From Neospora caninum Liverpool (lineage: Eukaryota > Apicomplexa > Conoidasida > Eucoccidiorida > Sarcocystidae): 64,000 nucleotides of DNA. Below the pieces are notes generated by a model that saw nothing but the letters and a program-made list of their open reading frames with translations, did no database searches and was not told the origin of the DNA. The position numbers and the translations under genes are program-made. The stretch is taken from positions 2,190,793 through 2,254,792 of the forward strand of contig NC_018392.1 in assembly GCF_000208865.1 (NCBI RefSeq). The letters run 5' to 3'. Positions 6,107 to 25,278 of the stretch are shown one piece after another. The stretch's first letter is position 1. Each line of letters starts with the position of its first letter.

Positions 6107-8755
6107 GCAGGCATCGGTGCATGCACATTTTTAAATTCTAGAGACGAGGACAGCGTGCGTTTCTGTGCTCACTTGAGCTGTTGTCGGACTTCCGCGAATT
6201 CTTTCAAGTCGTTGACAGTTTCGACTTCGTAGCAGCCGGATTTGTTCAGGAATTCGTACTGGGGGGCCTCCTTCAGCGCGCACTTTTGCTTTTCGTCCGG
6301 CTGCAGGCCTTTGATCATTTGGTAGAAAATATGATAGCTTCTCTCGCCCTGGCCCTGGAACTCGATACGCGACAGCTCAAGCATGTAGTTGCTGACGATG
6401 CCTCCGTGGATGCCGCCGGTGGGCGCAACGTCGAGAGACACGAAACGACCGAAACGCGAGGAATTGTTGTTTCGGAGTGTCCTGAAAAAAGGCCGAAAAG
6501 ACGCAAGGGCAACGCAGCTGGAGACACTCTCAGAGGCCGTGTGTGAGTGGCCTGGAGCTGGATCTGCCCAAAGTGTCTCCTCGTAAGAGACACTTGTGGG
6601 GCGAAACGGACCGAGAGAGCCAGCGAGTCCGGAGAGGGGCGTAGGCACCGGGGAACAAGACGCGACAAGTGCAGCCTTCGGTCCCTCGGACGCTCCTTTT
6701 TCGCGAAGGTTGGATCGAGGCACGAATGCGAAGAGAAGACCAAGACTCTCTTGGATGTACGACTGCGTAACCGCGTCGATGCAGGAACCGACAAAGTGAA
6801 ATCGGCAGCGAGTGCGCGAGGCAAGTCTTCTGAGATCAGTGCAGAGCACCACACCGCACTAAGCAGGCGTGGCGTGTGTCGGCGGGCAACCCCTCGAGGG
6901 GGCGAGAGAGGGAGAGAGGAACGAATGGGTTCGAGACGACTGTGAAAGACACAAAGACGGTACTCTCGGCGAAAGGAAACCTGTGTTGTGCTGAGCCTCT
7001 GACGAGGAACAGAGTCTTTGGACGGATCCCAGTCTTCACTTACTTTGCATTTCCAATGGCCTCAAGAAGCGGGTTCGCTCCAAGAATGATTTCCTGGATC
7101 TTATCACCGCCCGTTCCCGACTTCGAAGTCGCAAAGTACTGCATAAGTTGACGCGCAGTCTCTGTCTTTCCGGCTCCGGATTCACCTGACAAAAAACATG
7201 GCGATTGCAGGGACACGACACATGAGTCTGCCGCTCGAATCGCCGTGTTTCGAGGCATCCGAGGCAGGCTGCCGAGTTCTGCGTCCTCTTGTGTCTGGTC
7301 TTTTCTTTCTCGCGTGCGCGTGACAACGCGAAACAACGCTGCACGAGACGGAGGTTGAGGTTAGAAACTCGACACAACCTGACAGCTCTGGGGGTGGCGT
7401 GCATGCGTCCATGGAAAGGGCGAGGCGCTGCCTTCGACGACACCAGCGGAAACAGTGATGCAGGCGCAGAAACGAAGGCCAATAGAGCCGACATAGACTT
7501 CCAAAAAGATATCTGTATGGAGATATATGTATAGAGAGATGCACGTCAGTCCAACTTTATGTTCATCGTTCACCATCTACACAGACATTCATGTATATAT
7601 ATATATATATATATAGATAGATAGATATATTACATGTGCATGTATAGGTGTACGTATAGACGTATGTAAGCACGTATTGATGAAGAGGAGATGGAAGGTT
7701 TTGCGTACCACTGACGACACAAGATTGGTTTTCTTTTGTCATTTTGAGCATGTCCATCGCAGTCTGAGCGACGGCGTAGGTGTGGGGAGGGACATCTGTC
7801 GGGAAGCCTCGAGAGGTGTCGGCGTTCTGGTACTTGGTCACAGTTGCAGGCTCGTAGAGACCGGGAATGAGTTTGAACGGGTTCATCGCCACCAGCAGTC
7901 TTCCGGCGTATGTCTGTCAACATTTCCAGGCAAGGCAAGCAAGGCGACATGCAGAAGACAGCGAGACGGGTCAGGACAGAGAGAAAAAACGCCACCAGAG
8001 CGTAGCGGAAGGAGCAGAGCGAGGAGATACAGGAGCCGACACGAGAGAGACAGGGGAGGCAGGGTTTGCAGGTGATAAGGCCGTCTTCGGGGAACCCGTA
8101 ACCCTGTTCATGTGCATAGATTAAGGAGAGACAGGCTTCGTCTGATGCGCGTGTGCGGGTTGATTTGACGAACGGAGCTCAGCAAATGCAGGTGCTCACT
8201 GGCACCTGGATACGCATTTGATATCTCTCGACGAGCGCGCCAGAGAGTCTCTTTGGGGTTTCGAGGAGTCCCTTCCGAATGTTCCGTTTCCAGCAGTGTT
8301 ACTTCCCCTTCAACCTGGGCCTCTTCTGTGTAAGACAGGCTACAGCTCCTCAGCAGGGGGGGGGGATTCGTTGGGATAAACTGTCACGTTGTTTCCTGTG
8401 TGAAGAGACTCACGTAAATCTGATCCCGAACGTATCTTTCCCGCATGACCTCGAGGGCGCAAGCCTCGTTGGCGTGAGGCAGTTTGGCGAGATCGACGAC
8501 GGTGACGGGATCAATGCCGACATTGGCGTTAAGGCACTCGGCGACTTCGACGGTTTTCGTGTTGCCGTCGATATCGACTGTGAGCTGTGTTCCGCTGATG
8601 CTCTTCACAATCGCCTTCACGTACATTTCCTCCTTCGAGGGCTCTCTAACAAACACCGGCGAGCCGAGGAGGTAATCGCCCAACTCGACTGCGGAGTATT
8701 TCCGCTCCACCTTCTTCTTGGCGCCCCCGCCTTCTGCAGCCTTCTTTGGCGGCAT
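1..8755 (-). CDS. Unconventional myosin heavy chain, class XIV-like, with multi-IQ neck (partial at left edge)
   Basis: Actin-based motor. I join exons 8414-8755, 7709-7913, 7044-7185, 6173-6481, 5496-5603, 4986-5064, 4295-4477, 3681-3797, 3323-3458, 2481-2820, 1820-2006, 1058-1263, 653-790 and one starting at 351; all phases agree. The protein shows the P-loop GESGAGKTE (about residue 183), switch [10 protein letters not shown] (234), switch II DIYGFE (459), HFGRCIKPN (about 650) and the converter [13 protein letters not shown] (about 736). IQ motifs follow: [26 protein letters not shown] and [18 protein letters not shown]. The residue 16 before the DALAK-equivalent RSMAK is Asn, so the TEDS site is neither acidic nor Ser/Thr, as is common in apicomplexan class XIV. 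The ATG at 8755 sits in CAAAATGCC context. A neck with several IQ motifs recalls Toxoplasma MyoH rather than MyoA, but the tail lies outside the window, so I give no symbol. Introns carry TA microsatellites. Confidence 0.9.
477..509. repeat. (AT)n microsatellite in myosin intron
   Basis: Uninterrupted alternating A and T of about 33 bases. It lies between the second and third IQ-coding exons of the myosin gene. A similar run lies at 7594-7615 in another intron of the same gene. Confidence 0.95.
6073..6103. repeat. (AT)n microsatellite in myosin intron
   Basis: About 31 bases of alternating A and T in the intron between the motor exons 6173-6481 and 5496-5603. It is flanked by GCATGC-like bases (atgcaggcatcggtgcatgc). 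No coding content is visible around it. Confidence 0.95.
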
Positions 8756-11090
8756 TTTGGCTGAGGTGAGAAAAGAAAGAAATCGGGAAGAGGAACGCCG
8801 TGGAAGGCCCCGGCGAGAAGAAAGATTTCGTGTGGAGAGAGCAAAAGCGAGCGCGGAGAGGTCTCGCTCGCGTGCAAATTCAGAAGCCCTTGCGTCAGAA
8901 AGGGACACAAGATGGGGAGAGGTGCGAAGCGACCTGCAGGGGGTAGCGATACACTATATGGTCCTATCTACAGCTAGAGAGAAACAGGGGTCTGTGTGTG
9001 CGTGGAAGAGACTGTTTGGGTGCGTTTGCGAGCAAGAGAAAAGGACGCGACGAGGACAGAGTTGAGGACAAGGTTTGGCGGGGAGAGAACTGAGCAGGTG
9101 ACAGAGGCGAAACGGATGGGTCAGAGAGCGGAAGAAAAATCGGCGCAAATGGGCATAACGCGAGAAAAAAGGCCGGGACACGAGGATGAACTCGAAACCG
9201 AGAGGAGTGGAGACCAGCGAAAACGCGGCTTGAAGCGCTGAGTTCTCTCAGAGCGGCCCCGGACGGTCTCTCGATGGATCCCCGCCCGAGGCTAGGCCAT
9301 TCATTTTTCGCTTGTTGTCAGTGTTTTTTCTTTGCGAACCCTCCCGCGCAACGGTCACAGCCTCCGAGAGCGGCGCAGACCAGAAGGGAAAGCAAAAGGA
9401 TCAAGGACGGAGAAGGGAAGAGGACTGCCCGAAACGCGGGGGATGTGGACGACGCGGAATGGGGGCTCTCGACGCCCGCATTGATGCAGGTGAGCTGTTG
9501 AGTCCTCCGGCAGAAACAGGAAGAGAAAGGAAGGAGCACATCAACCCCTCTTCTCTTTCTCTGTGCAGGATCCGGAACGAATTGCCGGATTCAGCGGAAC
9601 AGAGTCGGAAAATCGGCCGGTCTGCGAGGCTGAAGGCGCTCGCGGAGCCGCGTCATTCCGCGGAAGAAGAGCGTCGGATTTTGAGTTTTGGAGACAAGAC
9701 ACAGCTGCGTCGAGGAAAGTCGCATTTCCTCGAGATTGACACATTCAGCTTGTTCTTTCTCACGAGAGAAAAGGCGAGAAGCGGGAAAACGGAAAGAAGT
9801 TTGCAGGCGGAGACGCGAATCCCGCGGAAATTCGGAAGGGAAATCCGAGTCTCTCGGAAGCACGCGCTTGTCGAGCCGCGCCAAATACGGGAAACACGAC
9901 GGCCGAGAGAGCAGGCACGGACGGACTGGCTTAACGCCAGAGAAAACCGAGAAATTCCAACGGGCTCCGCTCTTTTTTCCGACGGGGCGAAGAGCGGATG
10001 AGGCGAAGATCCCAAGACATCAAAGAAAAGAAATTCATGCAGGAAACGGCTCAAAAATCGACCAGAGAGGGCCGGCCGCGCGAACCTTCACAGCTAGGCG
10101 CGTCGACCGGAAGCTCTGGGGCTGTGCCCGGAGGAACCGCAGGCCGAGAAACGGCTTCGCGGAAAGGAGCGAACAGGGCGTTGTCGAGGCTGGGAAAAGG
10201 TTCGGAAGAAGAAAAGCGCGACAAAAGGGGAACGAGGTGCGGTTTTCCCTCTTGTTTTTCGCGAAAACACGCCAAACCCCGAAGCAGCTCTCCTTTGCCC
10301 CTGTGCAGCGCGATGTGTATAGCCAGCGCGAATTCGGGAGAAAAAGAGTGCCTTGCAGGGACACTCCGACGCTCTTGAGAGAAAGAGTCCCTTCTTTGTG
10401 GAAGACACTCTGGGCGTTTTCTGCGCATGTAACAGTGCGATTGGTGTGAAGACGGCTGGGAACAGGCAAAACGCAGGGAAAACCCGGCTTCGGAGACCGG
10501 CTCTAAATGACACAACGCGAGTTTCCTTCTCGCAGGAAGCTCGTTTTCTGGTCACCGCGCGCTCGGGTGGAGCTTTGCCTCGCATTCTCACTGTATTCCC
10601 GAGGTTTGCGCCTAAACAGCCTTCACAGGCTGACACGAAAAGCGTGGGAGAGACACAGGACGATCACACATTGCAGATGCGCCGAGCGTGGATCGCGACT
10701 TTCCGTCTTGGTTTGGCTTGCCGCGGGTGCGCTGGTCAGAGTCGCCTTTGTTTCCGGCAGTGTGGCGTTGCCTGCGTGTGTCGACATTTAGTGCCTTTCT
10801 TCGGGAAAGGCCGCAGAGGAGGCGGCAACAGGGAAGAGAAGGAAACAAAAAGGACAAAGAGACACTCGGCGAAACGCGAGTTGTATCTCGGCTGCGCACT
10901 CAAAACGGACACCCGAGGAAGACCGCACATTTTCCTTTCTGTTGCACGGGATGTGAGAGTCCAAAAAGCCCAGCATTACGGGTAAACAGAGTCTCGTACG
11001 TCTGCGTCATCAAGGCCACAGACGCAGTCCTAGGCCACAGACGCAGTCCTCTGCCCAGGCGCGTGCGTGTTGCTCGATAGGCAATTCTGT
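8756..11090. other. GC-rich upstream region of the myosin gene, no gene recognised
   Basis: About 2.3 kb upstream of the myosin ATG. It is purine-rich on the plus strand. Long open frames on both strands translate to low-complexity Lys/Arg/Glu or Ser/Phe-rich strings without recognisable domains, so I treat them as non-coding. It probably holds the myosin promoter and 5' UTR. One GAGACGC heptamer, a motif class known from Toxoplasma promoters, is seen near 9808, too far away to assign with any confidence. Confidence 0.5.
11014..11050. repeat. Short tandem duplication, period 19
   Basis: The 18-mer ggccacagacgcagtcct occurs twice, at 11014-11031 and 11033-11050, with one base between. The copies are identical. 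It lies at the change from GC-rich to AT-richer sequence, just before the stretch that carries mitochondrial-type DNA. Confidence 0.9.
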
Positions 11091-13175: not shown

Positions 13176-16100
13176 TCACACTCTTCGCGCACCGACAGCA
13201 GTCGCTACTTTTTCCATTGCGAGTAGAAGTCGCGAGAGAGCTGTGGGTCGAGACAAATGCATGCCCGGCTCGAGAGAGTCTCTCTGTCGGTATGCAACGA
13301 CGTCGCCTCCCTCTTCTCCTTTACTGCCTTCTCTCTTTCGCCCGTCGCGTTCGCGCTCCGTTTCTCCTGTCTCTTCTCCAGACTCGCTTCCCTCATTCTG
13401 CGCTTCACGCGAGGCCTGTCGTTGCCCTAACCAACTTCCCCGTGACGAATCTGGGCACACAGGCCCCCGGTTCCGACCGCGCGTGCTGTTTTCGTCGTTC
13501 TCCCGTTGTGATTCCCCATGAAAAGAAACTCTTTCCCGCTCCCCGCGCTGTACATGCTCCTGCTCTCGGTGGGCATGAGCCAGAGGCTCGTCCCTCCCAA
13601 CTGTGGTCTTCGCAGGCACCGCTTCCAAAGCGCCAAGACACCGATAAAGTTCTTGTATTTCGTCTTGGAGAAACTGAAAAGCCTTTTTTTCAAACATGTG
13701 CCTGTCTGAGAAACATGCTGTTTCCTTCCAGTCCACAGAGGAAGTCCAGCTGTTGCCGGCTGCAACTCCGCCAGTTTCCTTCCTCACTCTCTTCTCGTTG
13801 TCCTCAACCCAAGGATCTCCTCTATCGGAAATGCATCCTGACACCGCCGCCGACCCCAAGGAGGCCTTCGCCTTGATCTCGCTCTCCTGGTGTCCTCCTC
13901 TCCCGCGGCGAAGTCGCGGTGTTGCCACGCTCTGCCTTTCACTGCCGCGATCCTCGAATTCCTCTCGTTCCTGGTGCTCTGCCGCGGGTTGCGCGTCTTC
14001 GTCTCTTCTACTCGCCGAAGTATCGACTGCGCTTACAGTCTCATTCTCCTTCCCTCCCTCTGTGCAGGCGGTGCGTGTTTGATTCGTCTCTGCCACGTCC
14101 ACGATCCCTTCAGATTCCATGTGTCTCTCGCCCTGGGTTTCCCGCCTTTCTCGCTCCCAGGTGCTTGCGCGTTTCGGAGATCCACGTGCCGTGCTCGTCT
14201 CTTTCCCCTCTCGAGTTCCTTTCCCCGTTCCCTCTTCTCTTTCCCCGAACTGGACGTCGCTCCCGTCGCCCCTCTCTCCGCTTCGCCTCTCGTTTTCGAT
14301 GTTGCGGGAGACCGCAGCTCTCTGCGCCTCCGCAAGAGAAGGACACGAAGAGGACGAAACTCCAGAAGGAAGCGACGGAGGCGAAATCGGCGCTCGCGCC
14401 TCGAGCGATCCACTGGCGACGTGGAGAAGTCTGGGCGATGCCGAGAAGTTGAAAATGCCCAAACGGTGATCCTGGCCTTCAAACTCGACATTCTGGAAAA
14501 CTGCCCAGCGTAGAGATATGGAACGCGTCGAAGACGGGTCACAAGAGGAAACAGCCGGGTGTTCAAGCACGGCTTCCGAAGAACGTTCTCTGTCGTTTCC
14601 GTCGCGTTCAGCGACTCCGCCTTCGTCAGCGTGAAGCACCCACCACCGTTTGAGACCGTCTTGCCTTTCAACTCTCACAGGCCGCGCTTCCTCGCGACCG
14701 CTGCCTCCGGGGTGTCTTCGTCTCCCAGCCCCTAGAAGGAGCTGTCGATATCGCAGCAGCATTGGACAGCCACATGGATCGTCCTCCCACGGCGGGTTCT
14801 CGTCTCTCGCTCCCTTTGGTCCGCCAGCGGTTCCTGTCCCCCCCAGCTCGCTCGCCATTCGCTGGGGACTCAACGCAGGGACGGCCGGGATGCGGCTGGA
14901 GGCAACGCGAGGAGAACCAGATCGCGCAGATGACCGAGAGCAGGAGTTGGGCGCGGAAGAACGCGAAGAAGCGGCCGTTCGCTCTGGAGCGACACACGAC
15001 TCGAGGCGTCGCAGGCCAGAACCGACGCTCGAAAAATTCCCAGACGTCTTGACGCGAATGCAGCAGAGCTGGTCAGTTGAAGTCCACAGGAAGGCGACGA
15101 GCCCTCCACGCGCATGCCAGTCGCTGACCGGCCAAGACGCGACACTCCCAGAGAAGGGAGCATGTGAGGACACTGGAACACAGACAGGAGACACTTGGTG
15201 ATCTTCGAGCAAGACGAGAACCCCGACAAGGTCGTACACCATGCCGGGCACGATGCCGAGTGAAGCCGGCGCAGCTCGGGTTCCTTCGCCAGAGAAACAA
15301 AACGGAAAGAACGGCTCTCGAGCTTCGTGCGGCTTCGCGTCTTCGAAACCATCCCGGGGTTGGACCTGCATGCGCATCGAGTCTGGCCGCACATGTGCTT
15401 CCCGTCCCTCTCTTCCTTGGCGCTGGTGCACCTTCTGTGGCCATTCTCGCCCGCGTTCTGTCTCTTCCTGCTTCAGAGAAAACGTCAGACTGTGAAGCCG
15501 TGAGAAGAGTGGCAGTCGACAGAGACCGAGAAGGACTTCGACCGAAGCCAGGGGGAGAACGCGGCGAGAGACAGACGAAAGAAGAGCCGCGCTTCCCTGG
15601 GTCTCCGCTTTTTCTTGCGGCGCCTCTGGCTCTGCTCGAAGCCAAGGCCGAGAAGCAAAGGATCTCTCGTCGTTTGCTGGCTTAGTTGACACGGAGACTC
15701 CAGCGAGTCGCGTTCGTCTCCCGGCTTCCAGTCCTTTTTCGCGCAACGTCTTTTGCGTATCGTTCTCGTCCTCTCTCGGGGCGATCTCGGGCGCGACGCT
15801 GAGTGGGATCTTCCCGTCGGCGAGTTCCCCCTTCTGTCTTTTCCCAGGCCTCGCATCTCCTCCTGGTTCGCCCGCAAACTCCACCGCCCGTTTCTGCCGT
15901 CCTTTTTCGAGTTTCCCTCTCGCCTTCTCCCCTCGAGTCCGACGGTCGTCCGCCTCACGAGTCGCGTCTTCCTCGGGTTCCTCTGCGTCTGCGCTTGCCG
16001 GGTCGGCGGTCTGTAAGACGCCTGCGTCGCCTGCCTCGCTCCCGGGGTGCGCTGTGTCTTCTCCGCGCCCAGCTTGCTGCTCGGCGTGAACAGAGAGAAT

Positions 16101-19100
16101 CCGTGTAGCAGATCCATCCAAGGCAAGACGAGAGGAAGGTCCGCGGGGAAGGACAAACGTCGAACGAAACGCAGCCAGCGCGTCTTGTAGCGAGGTGGAG
16201 ACCATCGACAGCGGCAGAGCAAAGGGGACTGGACGCGACCGGCCTGGGGTGATGGCACCGACCGGCATGCAGACCGAGAGAAAAGACGAGGACAGAGAGG
16301 AAGACGAGGACAGAGAGGAAGACGACGGAGAGGACAACGCAGCACACGGAGACGAGGAGAAAGAAGATGTACCTGAGGCAGGGGCGAGGCGAACGATCTG
16401 GAAACCGGTTCTGCAAGAGAGAAGAGCAAAGCAGCACGAGAGAGACACACCGCGTGGAAACTTAGAGTTCACATCGCATTCTCTGTCTCTTTGTTTTCTT
16501 GCCTTCTACCTCTCCAGTTCGAGTGCGATCTCGAAGCCTGGGCCTGTGCAGAAACGCGACCTCTGCCTTTTCAAGCAAAACCCCGAACCTACACTCTCGT
16601 CCCGCGCAGGACTCGACCAGAGACAGTCCTAGCGAGGACCAGACCAAGAGCGGTGACTACCGGTACTAGGAAAGAGTCGATCGCGCTCGATCTTGTGACG
16701 AGACAAGATGTCTCCCCTCCTGGGGTGGCCGCCCTGTCGAAAAAGCGCGACCAAGTCTCATGACTTCGAACCTCGCTCACCTGTGCGTTCCGTGGAGCCG
16801 CACCAGTCGCAGGCCTTCGCGGCCTTCGATTCCGTCTCTTCTTCTTCTCTCTTCTTCTTCTGCCGCTGCAACAAACTCCGAGAAAGTCCGCTCCTTCCCC
16901 TCTCCCCGCCGTCCATCCTCTTCTGTCCCGCCCCGTTTTGCCCCGCCTCGTTCTCGCCGCGGCCTTGTCTCCCTCTGTGGCATTCGGGGCAGTGCGCGGG
17001 AAGATGGAGCGCAGAGGAGGTTCGAGAGCTTCACGCGTTCTCCTTCTTGCAGATCCGCGAAAGGCGTCTCTTCGTCTGCCCCAGGGTGTCCTGAGAGGGT
17101 GACCCAAGCGAGGCTCCGGCGGAAGAGCATGAGTAGACTCGCCTCGTTTTCACGCTCTTGCGTCTCCCCCAACGTCCCGTCGAGACAGCCGCATAAGCGG
17201 AGGATGGAAAACGCCTTGCCTAGACGGGCATCGGCCTCTGTGGAACCTCGCGGGGTGGGCGGCAACCTGAGTGCATGCGTGCCTCGTTGGTCCTGCGCGG
17301 CTTCGCTCGCTCCGTCTGTCTGCGCAGGGGAGTTGAGCGCGGTGCCGCCGGTGGGCGCGTCGACCGAGGATACCGCGATTGAGGCGAGGTGAGGCAAAAC
17401 ATGCGCGACAGAGGACGAATGCGGCAAGCAACACGGAGTGGAAAGCACAGCGGAGAGCGCTGACGACGAGGCAAATGCGGCGGGGGGTGCGTGCGCTTCT
17501 TCCTCCAGTGCACAATCGAGGGCATTCTCGATGTCGGTCTGAGAGACACAGAAGGAAGAAGGCGGCATGAACCCCGGCGACGGCGAAGAAAACGCGGAAC
17601 TCGAGACAGCAGACGCCGCGGAGGGAAACGCGCGCGACGGCAGGTGCGGAGACAAACTGAGCGACACGGAGACATTTGAAAAAGATGAAAATGAGGCAGA
17701 CGAGGAAGTGGAAGGAGACGAGGAAGTGGAAGAAAACGAGGAAGCGGAAGAAGACGAGGAAGAGGAAAAAGACGAGGGAGAGGAAAAAGGCGAGGAAGCA
17801 GAAGAGGACGAGGAAGAGGAGGAAGACGAGGAAGAGGAGGAAGACGAGGAAGAGGAAGAAGACGAGGAAGAGGAAGAAGACGAGGACGAGGAAGTAGCAG
17901 CAGGCGCGGCGAGTGCGAGAGAGGAGAGTTTGTGGAGAAATAGGGAATCGATGACGAGGAATTCGATCTGGGCGTGTCCCTGTTTTGCCAGGTTTTGACG
18001 GTCGTTCACCCACGAATCCTCCAGCCGACTCTGCTGTCTCTCCAAGTGTTTCAGCTCGTCTTCCTCGTCTGAGGCTGTTTCTGCAGAGGCTTCTTCGTAG
18101 GCATCCGCATCGCTGTTTCCAGCCGCCTGCTTTTCTACGCGATTTCGCGATGGAGCCGCATTTTCAAGTTCTTCGTCGCGGTTTCGCGCGGACCTCCGCG
18201 TCCACGTCTCCGCGATGGCGTCGCCCTCATCGCCCTGAGATCGGCGACACGCTCGCTTTTTCGCCCTCTTGCCTTCTGTTTTTCGCCGCGCTTCCGCGAC
18301 TTTCTCTCGGAGGATGTCCCATTCCTCCTCGCGCTTTGTTCTCACGGTTTCTTCTTCTCGCTGTCGCCAGGCGCGGTACTCTGTTTCCGTCATCAAAACG
18401 ACCTCCGTCTCGCCGTCTCCCTCGGCGTTGTTCTCGGAGTGCGCCGGTTCGTTTCCCTGGGCGCCTCCTTGCCGCGCTTCCTGCCTTCCCCACGGACTCT
18501 CGCCTGGCGGTTTCTGTCTCCGCACCCGAAAGAGCAGAGGCCCTCTCCGGAGGACGATCACGTCCACCACGGAAACCTCTCCAGGCATGCCACGGCGCAG
18601 GCCTTTCAACGCTTGGGGAACTCCTCGCTCGTCCTCTTTCCCGTCGTCGGTTCGCGCGGTTTCGCCCCTTCCGCCCCGCCAGCGCCCGAGAGGAAACGCG
18701 GCGCGACAAGAAGAAAGAACCCGGAGAGCGCGGCCTGGAGACGCGGCTCCGCGGGCTGCATGAGCATAGGGCGGCGAAAGGCAAGAAGGCGACGCATGCG
18801 GGAGGAATCGCGGGGGAACCGCCGAGCACGAAGCCCCTGGAAGAGAAGGAAGCAAAGACGGAGACGGACGTGAGCGAGGAAACGCAAAGAGAGGCCGGCA
18901 TGTCGACGCGTGCAGAAGCAGACAAGCCGAGACAGGGAGGTCCAGAGGACAGCACGGCTCCGACAAACCGCAGAGAGACGCGCCCTGGACAAAGACCCGC
19001 CGAAAGGCGAACCTTGGGAAAGGCCTGTGCTGCTCCGCGCCTTCTGGACCTGCCTCGCTTCGGTCTTTTCTTCGGAAAATTCGCTCGAACACAAAGGCGA

Positions 19101-22100
19101 GAAACGGATCGGCTACTCGGGCTTTCAAGGAGTACCAGCCGTCGGAGACGCGCAGCGACAGGGCGTCTTCCCCGCTGGAAAACGGCGGATGGAGAATTTC
19201 AAGAACCATCGGCGTCGCAGGGGACACGTCGCCCTCGCAAATCTGCCGGAGCACCGAGCGCCGTCCCGCGGCTTCTGCCTCAACGCGACCAAGCAACGCC
19301 TTGAGAAGACTTCGCGGACTCGGAGGCGGCGGCGGAAAAGAGCCCAAACTCGGTTGAGGAGACAGTGCAGAGAGTGGAGAAGGAATGAGGGAGGGGGTGC
19401 CGGCCTCGCGAGGAGGCTGGAGGACGAGAGACGAGGGCCGGGAACTGGGACGGCGAGAACAGTGAGAGAGAGAGAAAGCAGGAGAGACTGCGGGGCTGCT
19501 GATCCGTTCTGTTTCGTTTTGGCGGCACGCGACGGCCAACGCAAAAGTCTGGATCCATCGCTGAGCAGCTCGGAGACAAAGGAGGCTGTAATGGTTGGTG
19601 ACCCAAGCGCGGGTGAAGCGTCCGTTTGATTCGCGGAACTGCGCCCGCAAGTCCCCTCTTTGATCGCCTCGACTCTTGCCGTTCATTTGCGCCTCCACTC
19701 CCTGTGAAGCAGAAAGTGTACAAGGCGCTGCTTTCTTCAAATCGCGCTTCCACTGGAGGTAAGTCTGAACCATGTTGAAGAAGTCGTCCACTCCTCCGAG
19801 GAGGATTTCTGCCTTTACGCCGTCTTCTCTTTCGCTTCTGCGTGCGTGAGCCTCGCCGGAGGCTTGCGTCGCTGTTCTCGGGCTTTGCGCGCATCCAGGC
19901 TCTGCCGGTGTTTTGCAGGAAAGCAGAAGAAAGCCTCGAGCGGCCTCGAGAGACCCGCAGTAGAGAGGAACGCTGCGGGTCTGGAGCGGCTCTGGGAGGC
20001 ACAGCAGCCAGAGCCCGCGGTCAAGGAAAGAACGCCGAAAGTCTCGGAGTCCGCCTGCAGTGTGAGAAGCCGAGAGGAGAGCAGAGAGCGGCGCGAGACA
20101 CGGAGGTCCCGAGGCAGGAGACGCAGGGCGCGGCGAAGGCTGGTCTCCTGAAAAAAAAGAGACTTGCGGCATGCAAATCGACGCAAGACGCGCGTGCCTC
20201 CCCCACAGCCATCGCAGGAGAAGAGCGTTGTGATGGAGAGGCGCAACAAGTCCTCCTGCCTTGACCTCGAGGGAGAACAGCCGAGAAGACTCGATTCCAG
20301 ATGCAATTGCCGTGCTCCTTTCTCTCCCTGCGAAATCGTCCTCTTGTTCTCCTTTCCGGTCGCATTCCTGTGTTCCTTTCCCTGCCTCCCCCGGTCTTCG
20401 ATTCTCTGCTTCCTCTCGACAGTTGTGTCGCGCGCGAGACCCGTTGCCTCCGAGAGACGCCGTCTGCGAGTTCCGCCGTGGAGCCTTGAAGTGTCTCCTG
20501 TCTCTGGCGACCGCGGTACGGGCGCCTGGGGCTCCACCGCTGGCCTCCGCGGGGCGAAGGACTCCCAAGCCGGAGGCGCCTCGCCGTCGCAAAGGCGGAG
20601 GCCGAGAAACACAAGAGAGGGACAAAGAGGGAGAGGGACTAACGCTCAGACTCTCAGAAGCAACCGGCAAGGAAGGGGTAGAAGGAGACGGAGCGGGAGA
20701 TCGTCTCGAGGAAGGAAGCGCAGAAGACAAAGGAGACCCTGGAGAGCCCTGGCCTCCTCCCGCGTCTGCCGACAGTGGCGGTTGCAGTTTCGCTTCCTCC
20801 TGCTGAACGGGGACACGGTTGGATGCAGGCGAAGATCGAACACGAACAAACGGAGACCCAAGGGAGCTAGGCGGGCGTTCAGTCTCCTCCACCGTCACCG
20901 AAAGTGTCTCCGTCCGGGCTTCGCGCTCTCCCACGCTCTCGACAGAGCCTGCAGGCCGCTGTGGAATCGATGCATGCGGAAGCAAATCTCGAGCAAAAGC
21001 TCCACCAACCCGCGAGAGAGAAAAGGAAGGACAGGAAGATGACGAACACGGATGCGAGGAGGCAACCACAGGCGAAACGAACGCAGCCGAAGTTACGACC
21101 GGCAGATTTGCTAGAGGGTTCCCTAGTGAGATGGCGACACCCCCCTCCACTGCCCCTCCACGATTAAAGGTTCCACTTGCCTCCTCTCGGCATTTGTCAG
21201 AATCCTCGAGTTCAACCATCTGCCGCGCCTTTCGCCTCGCTTCCTCACTCACCGTCACACTGCGTCCTGAGGCGAAACGGAATCCCCCGCTCATCCCTGT
21301 CTCCTGTCTCTCCTTCTCGCTCCTCGACTCCTGGCCTTCTGCCCGGATGTCGCCCTTCTCGACCATCTGTCCACGCTCCTTCTTCCCCTCCGTCTCGATA
21401 TCCTCGAGTTCAAACATCTGCCGCGCCTTTCGCCTCGCTTCCTCACTCACCGTCACACTGCGTCCTGAGGCGAAACGGAATCCCCCGCTCATCCCTGTCT
21501 CCTGTCTCTCCTTCTCGCTCCTCGACTCCTGGCCTTCTGCCCCGATGTCGCCCTTCTCGACCATCTGTCCACGCTCCTTCTTCCCCTCCGTCTCGATATC
21601 CTCGAGTTCAAACATCTGCCGCGCCTTTCGCCTCGCTTCCTCACTCACCGTCACACTGCGTCCTGAGGCGAAACGGAATCCCCCGCTCATCCCTGTCTCC
21701 TGTCTCTCCTTCTCGCTCCTCGACTCCTGGCCTTCTGCCCCGATGTCGCCCTTCTCGACCATCTGTCCACGCTCCTTCTTCCCCTCCGTCTCGATATCCT
21801 CGAGTTCAAACATCTGCCGCGCCTTTCGCCTCGCTTCCTCACTCACCGTCACACTGCGTCCTGAGGCGAAACGGAATCCCCCGCTCATCCCTGTCTCCTG
21901 TCTCTCCTTCTCGCTCCTCGACTCCTGGCCTTCTGCCCGGATGTCGCCCTTCTCGACCATCTGTCCACGCTCCTTCTTCCCCTCCGTCTCGATATCCTCG
22001 AGTTCAAACATCTGCCGCGCCTTTCGCCTCGCTTCCTCACTCACCGTCACACTGCGTCCTGAGGCGAAACGGAATCCCCCGCTCATCCCTGTCTCCTGTT

Positions 22101-25100
22101 TCTCCTTCTCGCTCCTCGACTCCTGGCCTTCTGCCCCGATGTCGCCCTTCTCGACCATCTGTCCACGCTCCTTCTTCCCCTCCGTCTCGATATCCTCGAG
22201 TTCAAACATCTGCCGCGCCTTTCGCCTCGCTTCCTCACTCACCGTCACACTGCGTCCTGAGGCAAAGTCGAACCCTCCACGGTGCATGAACAGGAGGCCG
22301 TCGGCAGAAAGCGTGCCGTCGACGGAGGCAGGGGGCGTGTCTCCGCGATTTTCGCCTGGGGCGCTAGCTCGAGCCTTGGTACGTTCGGCTGTATGTACAC
22401 TGGAATGGAGAGGAAGGGAGTCGTCGAAGAAAGCAAGGAAATGCGAAGAGATGTCTTCGGCATCCTCCTGCAGGGTTCTGTCGACCTCTTGTGGTGCCTG
22501 CTGTCTGTATGCTTCGTTTGAGTCTTCTCTCCCCCCATTCGTCCATGCGGTCTCGCGTTCTGGTTTCATATAACTCCCATCTTGGCTGTCTCTTGTGCGC
22601 CTCGCTTCTTTCGGGTTCTCGCGTCTCCCCTGCACTGCCTCTCCTCCGTGCCCTGTGGGACCGCCCAAAGAAAAGCACGACAGCGGGACAGGGGGAGAGG
22701 AATGTGCCGAAGAAGAAAAAGGAGGAAGCGAAACGTTGGAAAGAGAAGCACTATGGCGGGAAGACGGAAGGGAAACGGAAGAAGATGCACCCGAAGAGGC
22801 AGCAGGAACCGCGTCGAGATCATCGAGTTCAACGGCCATAACATCAGCGAGGTCTGAGGGGGTCGGAGAAACAAACAGTCTGCTTGGGTGAGAAGGAAAA
22901 GGCAAAAACCTATCCTTTAAACCAGGGGAAGAGAGGGAGGAAGAAACGGAGCAAGGAGCGGCGCGAGAGACACCACCGATCAACGGAGAAGAAAAATGAT
23001 CCCGGTGGGAAGAAGGCGGGTTTGAGACAGGATACGCAGATGAGGAAGAAGAACCAGGAACAGGAGGATAGCAAAACGACGAGGATGAAGCAACTGAGGG
23101 AGAAGAAGACGAAGATGAGGAAGAGGAAGAAGATGATGAGGAAGAAGAGGAGGGCGATAAAGGCGTTGAGGAAAACAACGCTGAAGAATGAGAACTGAGG
23201 CAGGCGGGAGAGACACAAGACGATTGCAACGAAGGAGCAGGAAAGTGGGAAGAAACAGGGCTACGCGACGAGGCAGAAACAAGAGAAGAGGGAGTAGAAG
23301 GGGAACAAGGAGAGCGCAATGGAGGCGATGAAGAAGATCCGATTAGGGGAGAGAAAGGCGACGATGCATCGGAGAAGAAAGGAGAAGAGGTTGCTCCAAG
23401 CTCCTTGAACGCTTTATTTGGAGGAGGCGTATTAAACTCACAGACAACTCCGGCCTCGAGAAGGTCGTCGAGCAGGCTGAACAGCTGACTGCCGGGAGAC
23501 TCTTTGGAACGCATCGGCGAGACAGAAAGAGAACCGGAAAGAGAAACCCGACCGAAAGACGAAGAGGAAGAACAGGAAAAAGAGGATAAAGAAGGGGAAG
23601 AAAGGGAAGAGGAGGAGCAAAGCTGGGCGGGTGCAGAAGGACGGGAAGATCGCGGCGCAGGAGAGAAGCTACAAGAAGACGAAGACGCCACCGGAAAAGA
23701 AGAATGAGAAGGGAGAGAAGAGGAGAGAGAAGAGGACAGAGCAGAAGAGGAGAGAGAAGAGGAGAGAGAAGAGGACAGAGCAGAAGAGGAGAGAGAAGAG
23801 GACAGAGCAGAAGAGAGAGAAGAAGAGAGAGAAGAAGGGAGAGAAGAGGAGAGAGAAGAGGACAGAGCAGAAGAGAAAGAAGAAGAGAGAGAAGAGGACA
23901 GAGCAGAAGAGAGAGAAGAAGAGAGAGAAGAAGAGAGAGAAGAAGAGAGAGCAGAAGAGAAAGAAGAAGAGAGAGAAGAGGAGAGAGCAGAAGAGAGAGA
24001 AGAAGAGAGAGAAGAAGAGAGAGCAGAAGAGAAAGAAGAAGAGAGAGAAGAAGATGGAGAACAAGAGGACGAACGCGAAGCGCCAGACAAAGAAGGCGCA
24101 GACGTGGAAGAAGAAACGACAGGAGAGGACGCAGACGAGGTGTAGACAGCGGCAGCGGAACGGAGGGAATAGACAGGGAAAGGAGAGAAAGAGACATATG
24201 GTTCTGACCTTGAAGAGGCGGTCGTCGTGGTAGTTGCACTGCGTTGAGACTCGGCCGGACACACAGTTGATGGACTGGAGGAAGGCAAACACTTTGACAC
24301 GACAGACGGAAGGACAAAGGAGCAAGCAGGCAAGCCACGAGAAGTCGCCGACAAGCACGGCGAGAAGGCGGCCGGAGGCGGGGAGAACGAAGGCACAAAA
24401 AACGAAGACGAAGAAGAAGAAGAGAGAGACGATGAAGAGGTAGAGACAGACGATGAAAAGGAAGAGGGAGAGACAGACAATGAAGAGGAAGAGACAGACG
24501 ATGAAGGGGAAGGGAACGAAGAAGATGAAGAGGAAGAACGCGAAGAAGATGAAGATAGAGATACAGACGATGAAGAGGAAGAGTACGAGAACGAAGAGGA
24601 AGACGTTGAAGGCCACGGCACAGCGTGGTGTCGAGAGGTCGAAGTGAGACTGTGAGTTGCCCTCGAAGGGGAGGGAGATTCGCATGCCTTTTTCTGGAAA
24701 TGTGGATTTGCTTGAAACTGAAGGTATCTCTGATCAGGACTGGAGATGCGTTCTTGATCGCAGCTTCTCTCATCCGCGCCTGCCGCTCGCTGGAGAGGAA
24801 CGGGCTGGTGTGCAGGCTCGAATGGGAGCAGAGGACTCCCCGGCAAAAGCTGTGTCTCCTCGTCTTCGTCTTCACTGTCTTCTTCCTCCTCGTGCACCCA
24901 GCAAACCCGGAGACTCTCCATCTCGCGAGGCCTGTTGTTGGGGAGACAGCTCGGAGACAGCAGAGCCGAGGAGGCGAGGGGGACGCCGCGGGCGAGGTCG
25001 AGGGCCGGAAGCTGGTAGGAAGCAGCGACGAAAGCGAGGAAGAGAGGAGAAGATCGCGCGCAAGATGAAGACGAAGGAAAGGAAGACGATGAAGGAGAAG

Positions 25101-25278
25101 AAAGAGACGAATGAGAAGACGAAGAAGAAACGGAAGACGATGATACTGAAAAAACAAGAAGGCGCGAAGAAGGAAGACCCGGCGCTGTCTCAGGGGCCAG
25201 GACACGGGATTTTGAGCAGAGGCAAAGAGACACGCTCTCGCTTTCTTCTCTCCTCGCCAGGCTCGCGCACGGACGCAT
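13176..25278 (-). CDS. BRCA2: BRCA2 homologue: RAD51-binding recombination mediator with six BRC repeats
   Basis: BRCA2 loads RAD51 onto single-stranded DNA for homologous recombination. Exons 16781-25278, 16373-16410 and 13176-16243 join in phase to 3,867 codons. Residues about 1000-1350 hold six BRC repeats, FxxASGRSVTVSEEARRKARQM, with the RAD51-contacting FxxA. The C-terminal region follows BRCA2 order. A helical part has TNHYSLLCLRAAQ (about 1890). OB1 has SDGWYSLKARVADPF (about 2043) and VDVIVLRRGPLLF (about 2243). A charged helical stretch (about 2295-2335) could be the tower. OB2 has LQEGERVKLSNLL. OB3 has VYDLVGVLVLLED (about 3180) and LGIFNFSASPR (about 3440). The N-terminal thousand residues are mostly Ser-rich, low-complexity sequence. 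The ATG at 25278 directly follows an in-frame stop. A later Met (MESLRVCWVHEEEE) is another possible start. The 129-base second intron is in frame and stop-free, so it may be retained. Confidence 0.87.
17686..17895. repeat. Purine-rich triplet tract coding poly-Ser in BRCA2
   Basis: On the plus strand this is a run of gaa/gag/gac triplets. On the minus strand, the coding strand of BRCA2, it reads as more than 40 almost uninterrupted Ser residues followed by Ser/Phe/Pro-rich sequence. It sits between the OB1/tower part and OB2, so it acts as a long linker inside the DNA-binding region. Slippage would change its length in steps of three and keep the frame. Confidence 0.9.
21203..22275 (-). repeat. 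Tandem array of 198-bp units encoding BRC repeats
   Basis: Units start at 21203, 21401, 21599, 21797, 21995 and 22193, exactly 198 bases (66 codons) apart: five full units and a partial sixth. Each unit codes one BRC motif and a charged spacer (FELEDIETEGKKERGQ...). The units are nearly identical at the DNA level, silent positions included. One site alternates: in protein order the spacer reads Gly, Arg, Gly, Gly, Arg (GDIG/GDIR). The first BRC in protein order reads FDFASG instead of FRFASG, and the last reads MVELED instead of MFELED. Confidence 0.97.
23700..24055. repeat. agaagagag-type tandem tract coding Ser/Leu-rich region of BRCA2
   Basis: Imperfect tandem copies of agaagaggagagag-like units. 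The minus strand codes SSLSSSLSSALSSS-type sequence at about residues 408-526 of the BRCA2 protein. It has no recognisable domain and is probably disordered. Because the copies are short and similar, this stretch is a likely site of length variation and of assembly error. Confidence 0.9.

Follow-up and report, generated by a model that had tools for sequence, protein, structure and literature searches.

What keeps the predicted RAD51-binding repeats of a BRCA2 protein alike, down to their silent sites? The question is raised by a stretch of 64,000 nucleotides from the coccidian Neospora caninum Liverpool (contig NC_018392.1, positions 2,190,793 to 2,254,792 of the forward strand; this whole stretch is called the window below, and positions are counted within it), in which a tandem array of BRC repeats lies inside a minus-strand open frame at 16777-25278 (2,833 amino acids, aa). 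The gene is very probably the BRCA2 orthologue of N. caninum, with a predicted RAD51-binding block that is a coding minisatellite, each unit consisting of a BRC core and a low-complexity spacer. The Neospora array is repeated in frame and has identical silent sites (units 2-5, see below), and arrays with matching flanks are present in three coccidian genera, the units being uniform within each and different between them. This pattern marks concerted evolution, whether through unequal exchange or through gene conversion, or else an array that contracted and then expanded again. A first-pass annotation of this DNA had proposed recent expansion or gene conversion inside the array; this is supported, and the data do not separate unequal exchange, gene conversion and re-expansion. 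We file the locus as a homogenised BRC array, known from Trypanosoma brucei, now in a second, unrelated lineage.

The 198-bp array and its silent sites

Tandem Repeats Finder (TRF) placed the array at 21202-22263 on the minus strand, in frame, with a period of 198, 5.4 copies, 99% matches, 0% indels and a score of 2096; the limits annotated at first, 21203-22275, are at most 12 bases off. Six BRC cores are spaced exactly 66 aa apart, and the Pfam BRCA2 repeat (PF00634) matches six stretches in the open frame (5.8e-31). From the N- to the C-terminus the units are:

22081..22278, minus strand: BRC unit 1, with FDFA, MFEL and the Gly marker; outer edge diverged
21883..22080, minus strand: BRC unit 2, with FRFA, MFEL and the Arg marker
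21685..21882, minus strand: BRC unit 3, with FRFA, MFEL and the Gly marker
21487..21684, minus strand: BRC unit 4, identical to unit 3
21289..21486, minus strand: BRC unit 5, identical to unit 2, with the Arg marker
21202..21288, minus strand: BRC unit 6, core only, with MVEL, then unique sequence; an 87-bp match at 99%

Six near-identical 198-bp repeats had been annotated; the six cores stand, while only five units are full, the sixth following the others for some 29 codons before its sequence becomes unique. Unit 6 has no spacer, and the Phe of its LFDE-like motif is replaced by Val (MF>MV).

For the comparison of silent and replacement sites the units were taken in frame from the start of the core (GF), which gives approximately 41.3 silent and 156.7 replacement sites per unit. 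No silent difference was found among units 2-5 in any of the six pairs, and the claim that the array is homogenised at the DNA level was thereby supported. The sole variable base of these four units lies at codon 48, the Gly/Arg marker, whose order from N to C in units 1-5 had been read correctly as G,R,G,G,R. Unit 1 is set apart from units 2-5 by 2 silent and 4-5 replacement bases. Both silent changes fall within its first four codons, where the array has its outer edge, and one codon further out there is a third. Set against unit 3, unit 1 differs at codons 1, 2, 4 and 5 (three silent changes and FRFA>FDFA), again at the outer edge, and by Lys/Arg at codon 60. At the other end, core 6 shows no silent difference from cores 2-5 (4/4 pairs) and a single replacement base (Phe to Val).

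A duplication of three units (GRG GR, period 3) fits the order of the marker, but a single two-state marker proves nothing, and this candidate was rejected.

The array stands out from its surroundings. A 27-base core pattern with up to three mismatches matched six times in the window, as against a mean of 0.00 over 100 shuffles. TRF applied to the window and to 200 kb of its chromosome (20 10-kb pieces, including 2,207 N) returned 157 rows, 12 of them with a period of at least 30 and at least two copies; only the BRC array had an open frame together with matches of at least 95% and a period that was both at least 90 and a multiple of 3. The genome of N. caninum itself (57,546,354 bases, 14 contigs) was searched in a manner that scores the best candidates only and is not proof of absence. 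Among these the 198-bp unit was found at the six places described and no other, and PF00634 at five places, all within the BRCA2 gene. A dispersed repeat family is unsupported, the unit having been found nowhere else among the candidates scored.

Arrays in Toxoplasma gondii and Besnoitia besnoiti

Homologues of the whole gene were sought with a query containing the array (7996 candidates scored) and with an array-free query (1802 scored). Both gave T. gondii GT1 (2,909 aa, a partial record named 'protamine P1') and B. besnoiti (4,044 aa) only; the searches were limited by protein length and to the best candidates, and other coccidia may have escaped. The species sample for the comparison of arrays is therefore three.

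In T. gondii GT1 four cores with a 65-aa period lie at the very start of the record, which begins inside the array. B. besnoiti has 16 cores with a 62-aa period, against six in Neospora. Mean identity of full units within a species, at the protein level, is 0.979 in Neospora (5 units), 0.969 in Toxoplasma (3) and 0.998 in Besnoitia (15), whereas the cores are between species identical to 0.82 (Neospora-Toxoplasma), 0.57 (Neospora-Besnoitia) and 0.61 (Toxoplasma-Besnoitia). In the same order of pairs, the 28-residue core shows 5, 12 and 11 fixed differences, and 0 shared variable sites. The spacers are near-uniform inside each species; between species they give no clear gain over shuffles, of which 918, 813 and 3934 of 5000 reach the observed score. 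T. gondii GT1 thus differs from Neospora in its 65-aa units, its spacer and five fixed core positions. For scale, these two species are 38% identical over the 300 residues after the array and 64.5% in the DNA-binding stretch described below.

The flanks correspond. Upstream, FLAFFDDSL begins 55 (Neospora) and 51 (Besnoitia) residues ahead of the first core, a position outside the partial T. gondii record; downstream, RRRG begins 232 (Neospora), 230 (Toxoplasma) and 214 (Besnoitia) residues past the start of the last core. It had been noted at the outset that homogenisation would be refuted if orthologous units resembled one another more closely between species than the units of a single gene do; at the protein level the opposite was found, and this reading is not refuted.

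As controls, an N-terminal query retrieved eight distant BRCA2-type proteins among 8000 scored. P0010, without a unit by the pattern used, was left out, and in the other seven (P0003-P0009), which have several BRC-like units, mean identity between units runs from 0.33 to 0.62; the six units of the frog protein (P0006) average 0.43. BRC function alone therefore does not force identity. Control units were picked by a simple pattern, which also took one non-BRC match in P0001, whose unit figures come from a separate count.

Two of the controls deserve description. P0003 (1,659 aa) has a run of BRC-like units 48-49 aa apart, with a top pair at 0.90, amid an otherwise divergent set of 17, and this run is possibly a young local expansion. 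P0005 (1,212 aa) is a BRCA2-type protein with an OB1 domain and at least seven BRC-like units at distances of 48-77 residues (mean identity 0.62), a fairly regular array that is less uniform than the coccidian ones. Pfam matches to Con-6, Biotin_lipoyl_2 and DUF7312 inside the arrays are below cut-off in the Neospora protein; above cut-off are Con-6 in P0001 (27.8 bits, cut-off 25) and EKR in P0002 (39.1, cut-off 27), both taken as candidate composition effects of the repeats.

The BRCA2 gene and its predicted RAD51 docking

The gene was modelled as follows, together with the stretch that matches known DNA-binding domains:

13176..24921, minus strand: BRCA2 gene model, two exons, 3,791 aa
24921-16781, minus strand: BRCA2 exon 1
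16780-16411, minus strand: BRCA2 intron, 370 bp, GTGAGC...TTGCAG (GT-AG)
16410-13176, minus strand: BRCA2 exon 2
18889..19320, minus strand: DNA-binding-domain stretch including OB1; phmmer match to 1MJE_A at 9.2e-5, residues 308-451 of the piece 18499-20241

When the exons are joined the frame stays open, with a single stop at its end, and translation across the predicted splice is collinear with T. gondii there (LHGTHRTGFQIVRLAP against LHGTKRTAFQIVRLAP). The start ATG was picked by comparison with Besnoitia; start and splice are predictions.

The assignment to BRCA2 made in the first-pass annotation was borne out by the BRC repeats and the OB1 domain, and rodent BRCA2 DNA-binding domains of known structure are matched directly. 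OB1 (PF09103) scored above cut-off both on the whole open frame (1.3e-8) and on a 581-aa piece of it (window 18499-20241, minus strand; 3.9e-10). The DNA-binding stretch matched the rodent structures 1MJE, 1MIU and 1IYJ at 9.2e-5 to 6.7e-4, and a three-sequence profile matched the same structures more weakly (0.019 to 0.062). A search of NCBIfam gave no match. A profile built from eight BRC sequences, three of them coccidian, matched the human BRC4 peptide (1N0W_B) without gaps at 1.6e-8. In its FxxA core, in this gapless match and in its DNA-binding domain the protein thus resembles vertebrate BRCA2 with its repeats BRC1-8; unlike those of Neospora, vertebrate BRC repeats are described as non-identical and unevenly spaced in the part of PMC2408642 that concerns them.

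The partner is also present. The RAD51 gene of N. caninum lies on contig C10 and has human RAD51 as its best match, with 140 of 195 aligned residues identical. Of the residues that line the two pockets in the RAD51-BRC4 structure, 10/13 in the FxxA pocket and 7/11 in the LFDE pocket equal those of human RAD51. One DSS1-like match was found in the genome, over 19/60 positions at 2.4e-4 and under the family cut-off; Rad52 gave no match there in a search whose positive controls were bacterial. A second RAD51-like locus was seen on contig C13.

Other features of the BRCA2 region were observed beside the array. One is a tandem array with a 12-bp period (23707-24067; 29.6 copies, 83% matches); it encodes an extended run of Ser, Leu and Ala in the N-terminal region of the BRCA2 frame, where the Besnoitia row of the alignment consists largely of gaps. 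Another low-complexity coding array, poly-Ser with 9- and 18-bp periods, lies in exon 1 at 17693-17894. The plus strand, opposite to the gene, has an open frame of 588 aa (20807-22573) that spans the BRC array. This frame was considered as a gene and is probably due to chance; the array is without stops in three of the six frames, and no search was made with the 588-aa frame.

Copying of units, rival explanations and known arrays

Concerted evolution or re-expansion is our reading because the units are far more alike within a gene than between genera, in Neospora down to the silent sites. Through unequal exchange or gene conversion the units would overwrite one another, or else the array would shrink and re-expand; all units of a lineage would thus change together. 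Each core may dock one RAD51 protomer through FRFA, its FxxA motif, and MFEL, a relaxed motif of the LFDE type, the OB-fold part would hold single-stranded DNA, to judge from BRCA2 in general, and more units could deliver more RAD51 per BRCA2 molecule. It is conceivable, and in our estimation improbable, that the RAD51-loading capacity of coccidian BRCA2 is set in this way by a recombination-driven minisatellite in its own gene, the homologous recombination that the protein controls re-copying and re-counting the repeats, so that the number of docking sites would drift or be tuned per species, perhaps per strain.

How many units there are depends on the assembly. The true number may not be six, if the assembly collapsed or mis-joined an array of another length; this is a real possibility which we do not favour. 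A run of 1,062 bp in near-identical 198-bp units is difficult to assemble, the count comes from one assembly, and the T. gondii GT1 record breaks within its array. Moreover, a 2016 review gives for the T. gondii ME49 protein (TGME49_243265) a much larger block, 'near 16 repeat sequences' at residues 760-1838, together with an OB1 domain (PMC4853372, in the passages on this protein). The Gly/Arg marker and the edge variants nevertheless order the Neospora units, all of them in one open frame. A mis-assembly would touch the count and not the existence of an array which recurs in three genera.

Rather unlikely, in our view, are separate fresh expansions, in which each lineage amplified one or two kept BRC repeats recently and independently, without ongoing exchange; this is a sub-case of the reading given above. 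The unit lengths of 66, 65 and 62 aa, spacers that cannot be aligned across species and the few variants accumulated in the Neospora array are in keeping with it. However, the arrays lie between matching flanks in all three species recovered (the upstream flank being outside the T. gondii record), which would call for repeated parallel expansion, and core 6, although at the edge, matches cores 2-5 at every silent site. Selection on protein and codons, strong enough to keep the units alike without exchange, can be set aside with near certainty: the cores are indeed the conserved functional part (57-82% identical between species), but the spacers are nearly as uniform within species and yet without detectable relation between them, other multi-BRC proteins are divergent on average, and the silent sites of units 2-5 are identical, so that silent sites and spacers together speak strongly against functional constraint as the cause of unit identity.

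Several observations weigh against concerted evolution of a RAD51-docking array. Peak pair identities of 0.90 (P0003) and 0.83 (P0004) in the controls mean that local likeness of BRC units arises elsewhere too. The arrays of Toxoplasma and Besnoitia are known as protein only, silent-site identity being established for Neospora alone; the upstream flank lies outside the T. gondii record, which begins inside its array; and spacers of undetectable homology do not establish one ancestral array. Binding of RAD51 by the cores is suggested by the match to the BRC4 peptide, and phmmer with two units alone against solved structures gave nothing at E up to 10. The LFDE-type motif is partly kept, as MFEL in units 1-5 and MVEL in unit 6, MLQL in T. 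gondii and LLQF in Besnoitia. All six units, like both relatives, have Phe as third FxxA residue. Docking may not be the same in every detail, since in mouse BRC2 (FYSA) this residue is a Ser largely intolerant of change according to the relevant part of a preprint (PMC12803100). The same source describes a single BRC repeat as sufficient for the viability of mouse stem cells, several repeats adding resilience under stress; therefore six or sixteen need not matter much. Finally, the helical domain, OB2, tower and OB3 had no Pfam match in either exon, which is not absence, and an AlphaFold2 model of the DNA-binding region reached a mean predicted local distance difference test (pLDDT) score of 32.7.

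Coccidia are not known to have switching of the variant surface glycoprotein (VSG) type, and a second unrelated group with the same BRC design adds doubt to the explanation of such arrays by antigenic variation. Near-identical tandem BRC repeats were described in 2008 (Mol Microbiol) for T. brucei and briefly for T. congolense, by authors who doubted VSG-switching antigenic variation as the reason (PMC2408642, here and below as far as its passages on BRC repeats are concerned). T. brucei BRCA2 has 15 predicted repeats, 14 of them identical, with a unit of 132 bp (44 aa) and a number that differs by strain; with a reduced number, recombination and RAD51 localisation are impaired. T. vivax has one repeat and T. 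congolense 2-3. In multi-BRC organisms other than T. congolense the repeats are given as degenerate and unevenly distributed, and apicomplexans including T. gondii are credited with 6-8 (PMC2408642). As in T. brucei, the Neospora repeats are in-frame and tandem, virtually identical at the DNA level including the silent sites, and the most C-terminal repeat is degenerate. Unlike T. brucei, with its 132-bp unit and 15 repeats, Neospora has a 198-bp unit and six cores; and unlike the trypanosomes, where the relatives have 1 and 2-3 repeats, all three coccidian genera recovered carry arrays. The lineages being unrelated, the T. brucei and coccidian arrays probably arose independently.

The parallel to T. 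brucei drawn in the first-pass annotation thus stands as regards the homogenised array; it is less new than was supposed, the BRCA2 block of T. gondii having already been reported in PMC4853372. TGME49_243265 is like the Neospora gene an orthologue with a repeat block and an OB1 domain, and the passages of the review on it do not discuss homogenisation of the DNA. In the literature, among the matches listed and with most subscription papers outside the search, there was no title on Neospora or Besnoitia BRCA2 or on concerted evolution of coccidian BRC repeats. A core DNA-repair gene would here be one that evolves in concert within itself, and the three related species allow the number of RAD51 sites to be compared with how the parasites recombine. 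Gene models of coccidian BRCA2 may contain breaks or wrong unit counts at the array.

Outside the BRCA2 gene, a minus-strand open frame at 8387-8953 of the window matches the Myosin N-terminal SH3-like domain (PF02736) at 3.1e-6, its 27.3 bits lying just above the cut-off of 27.

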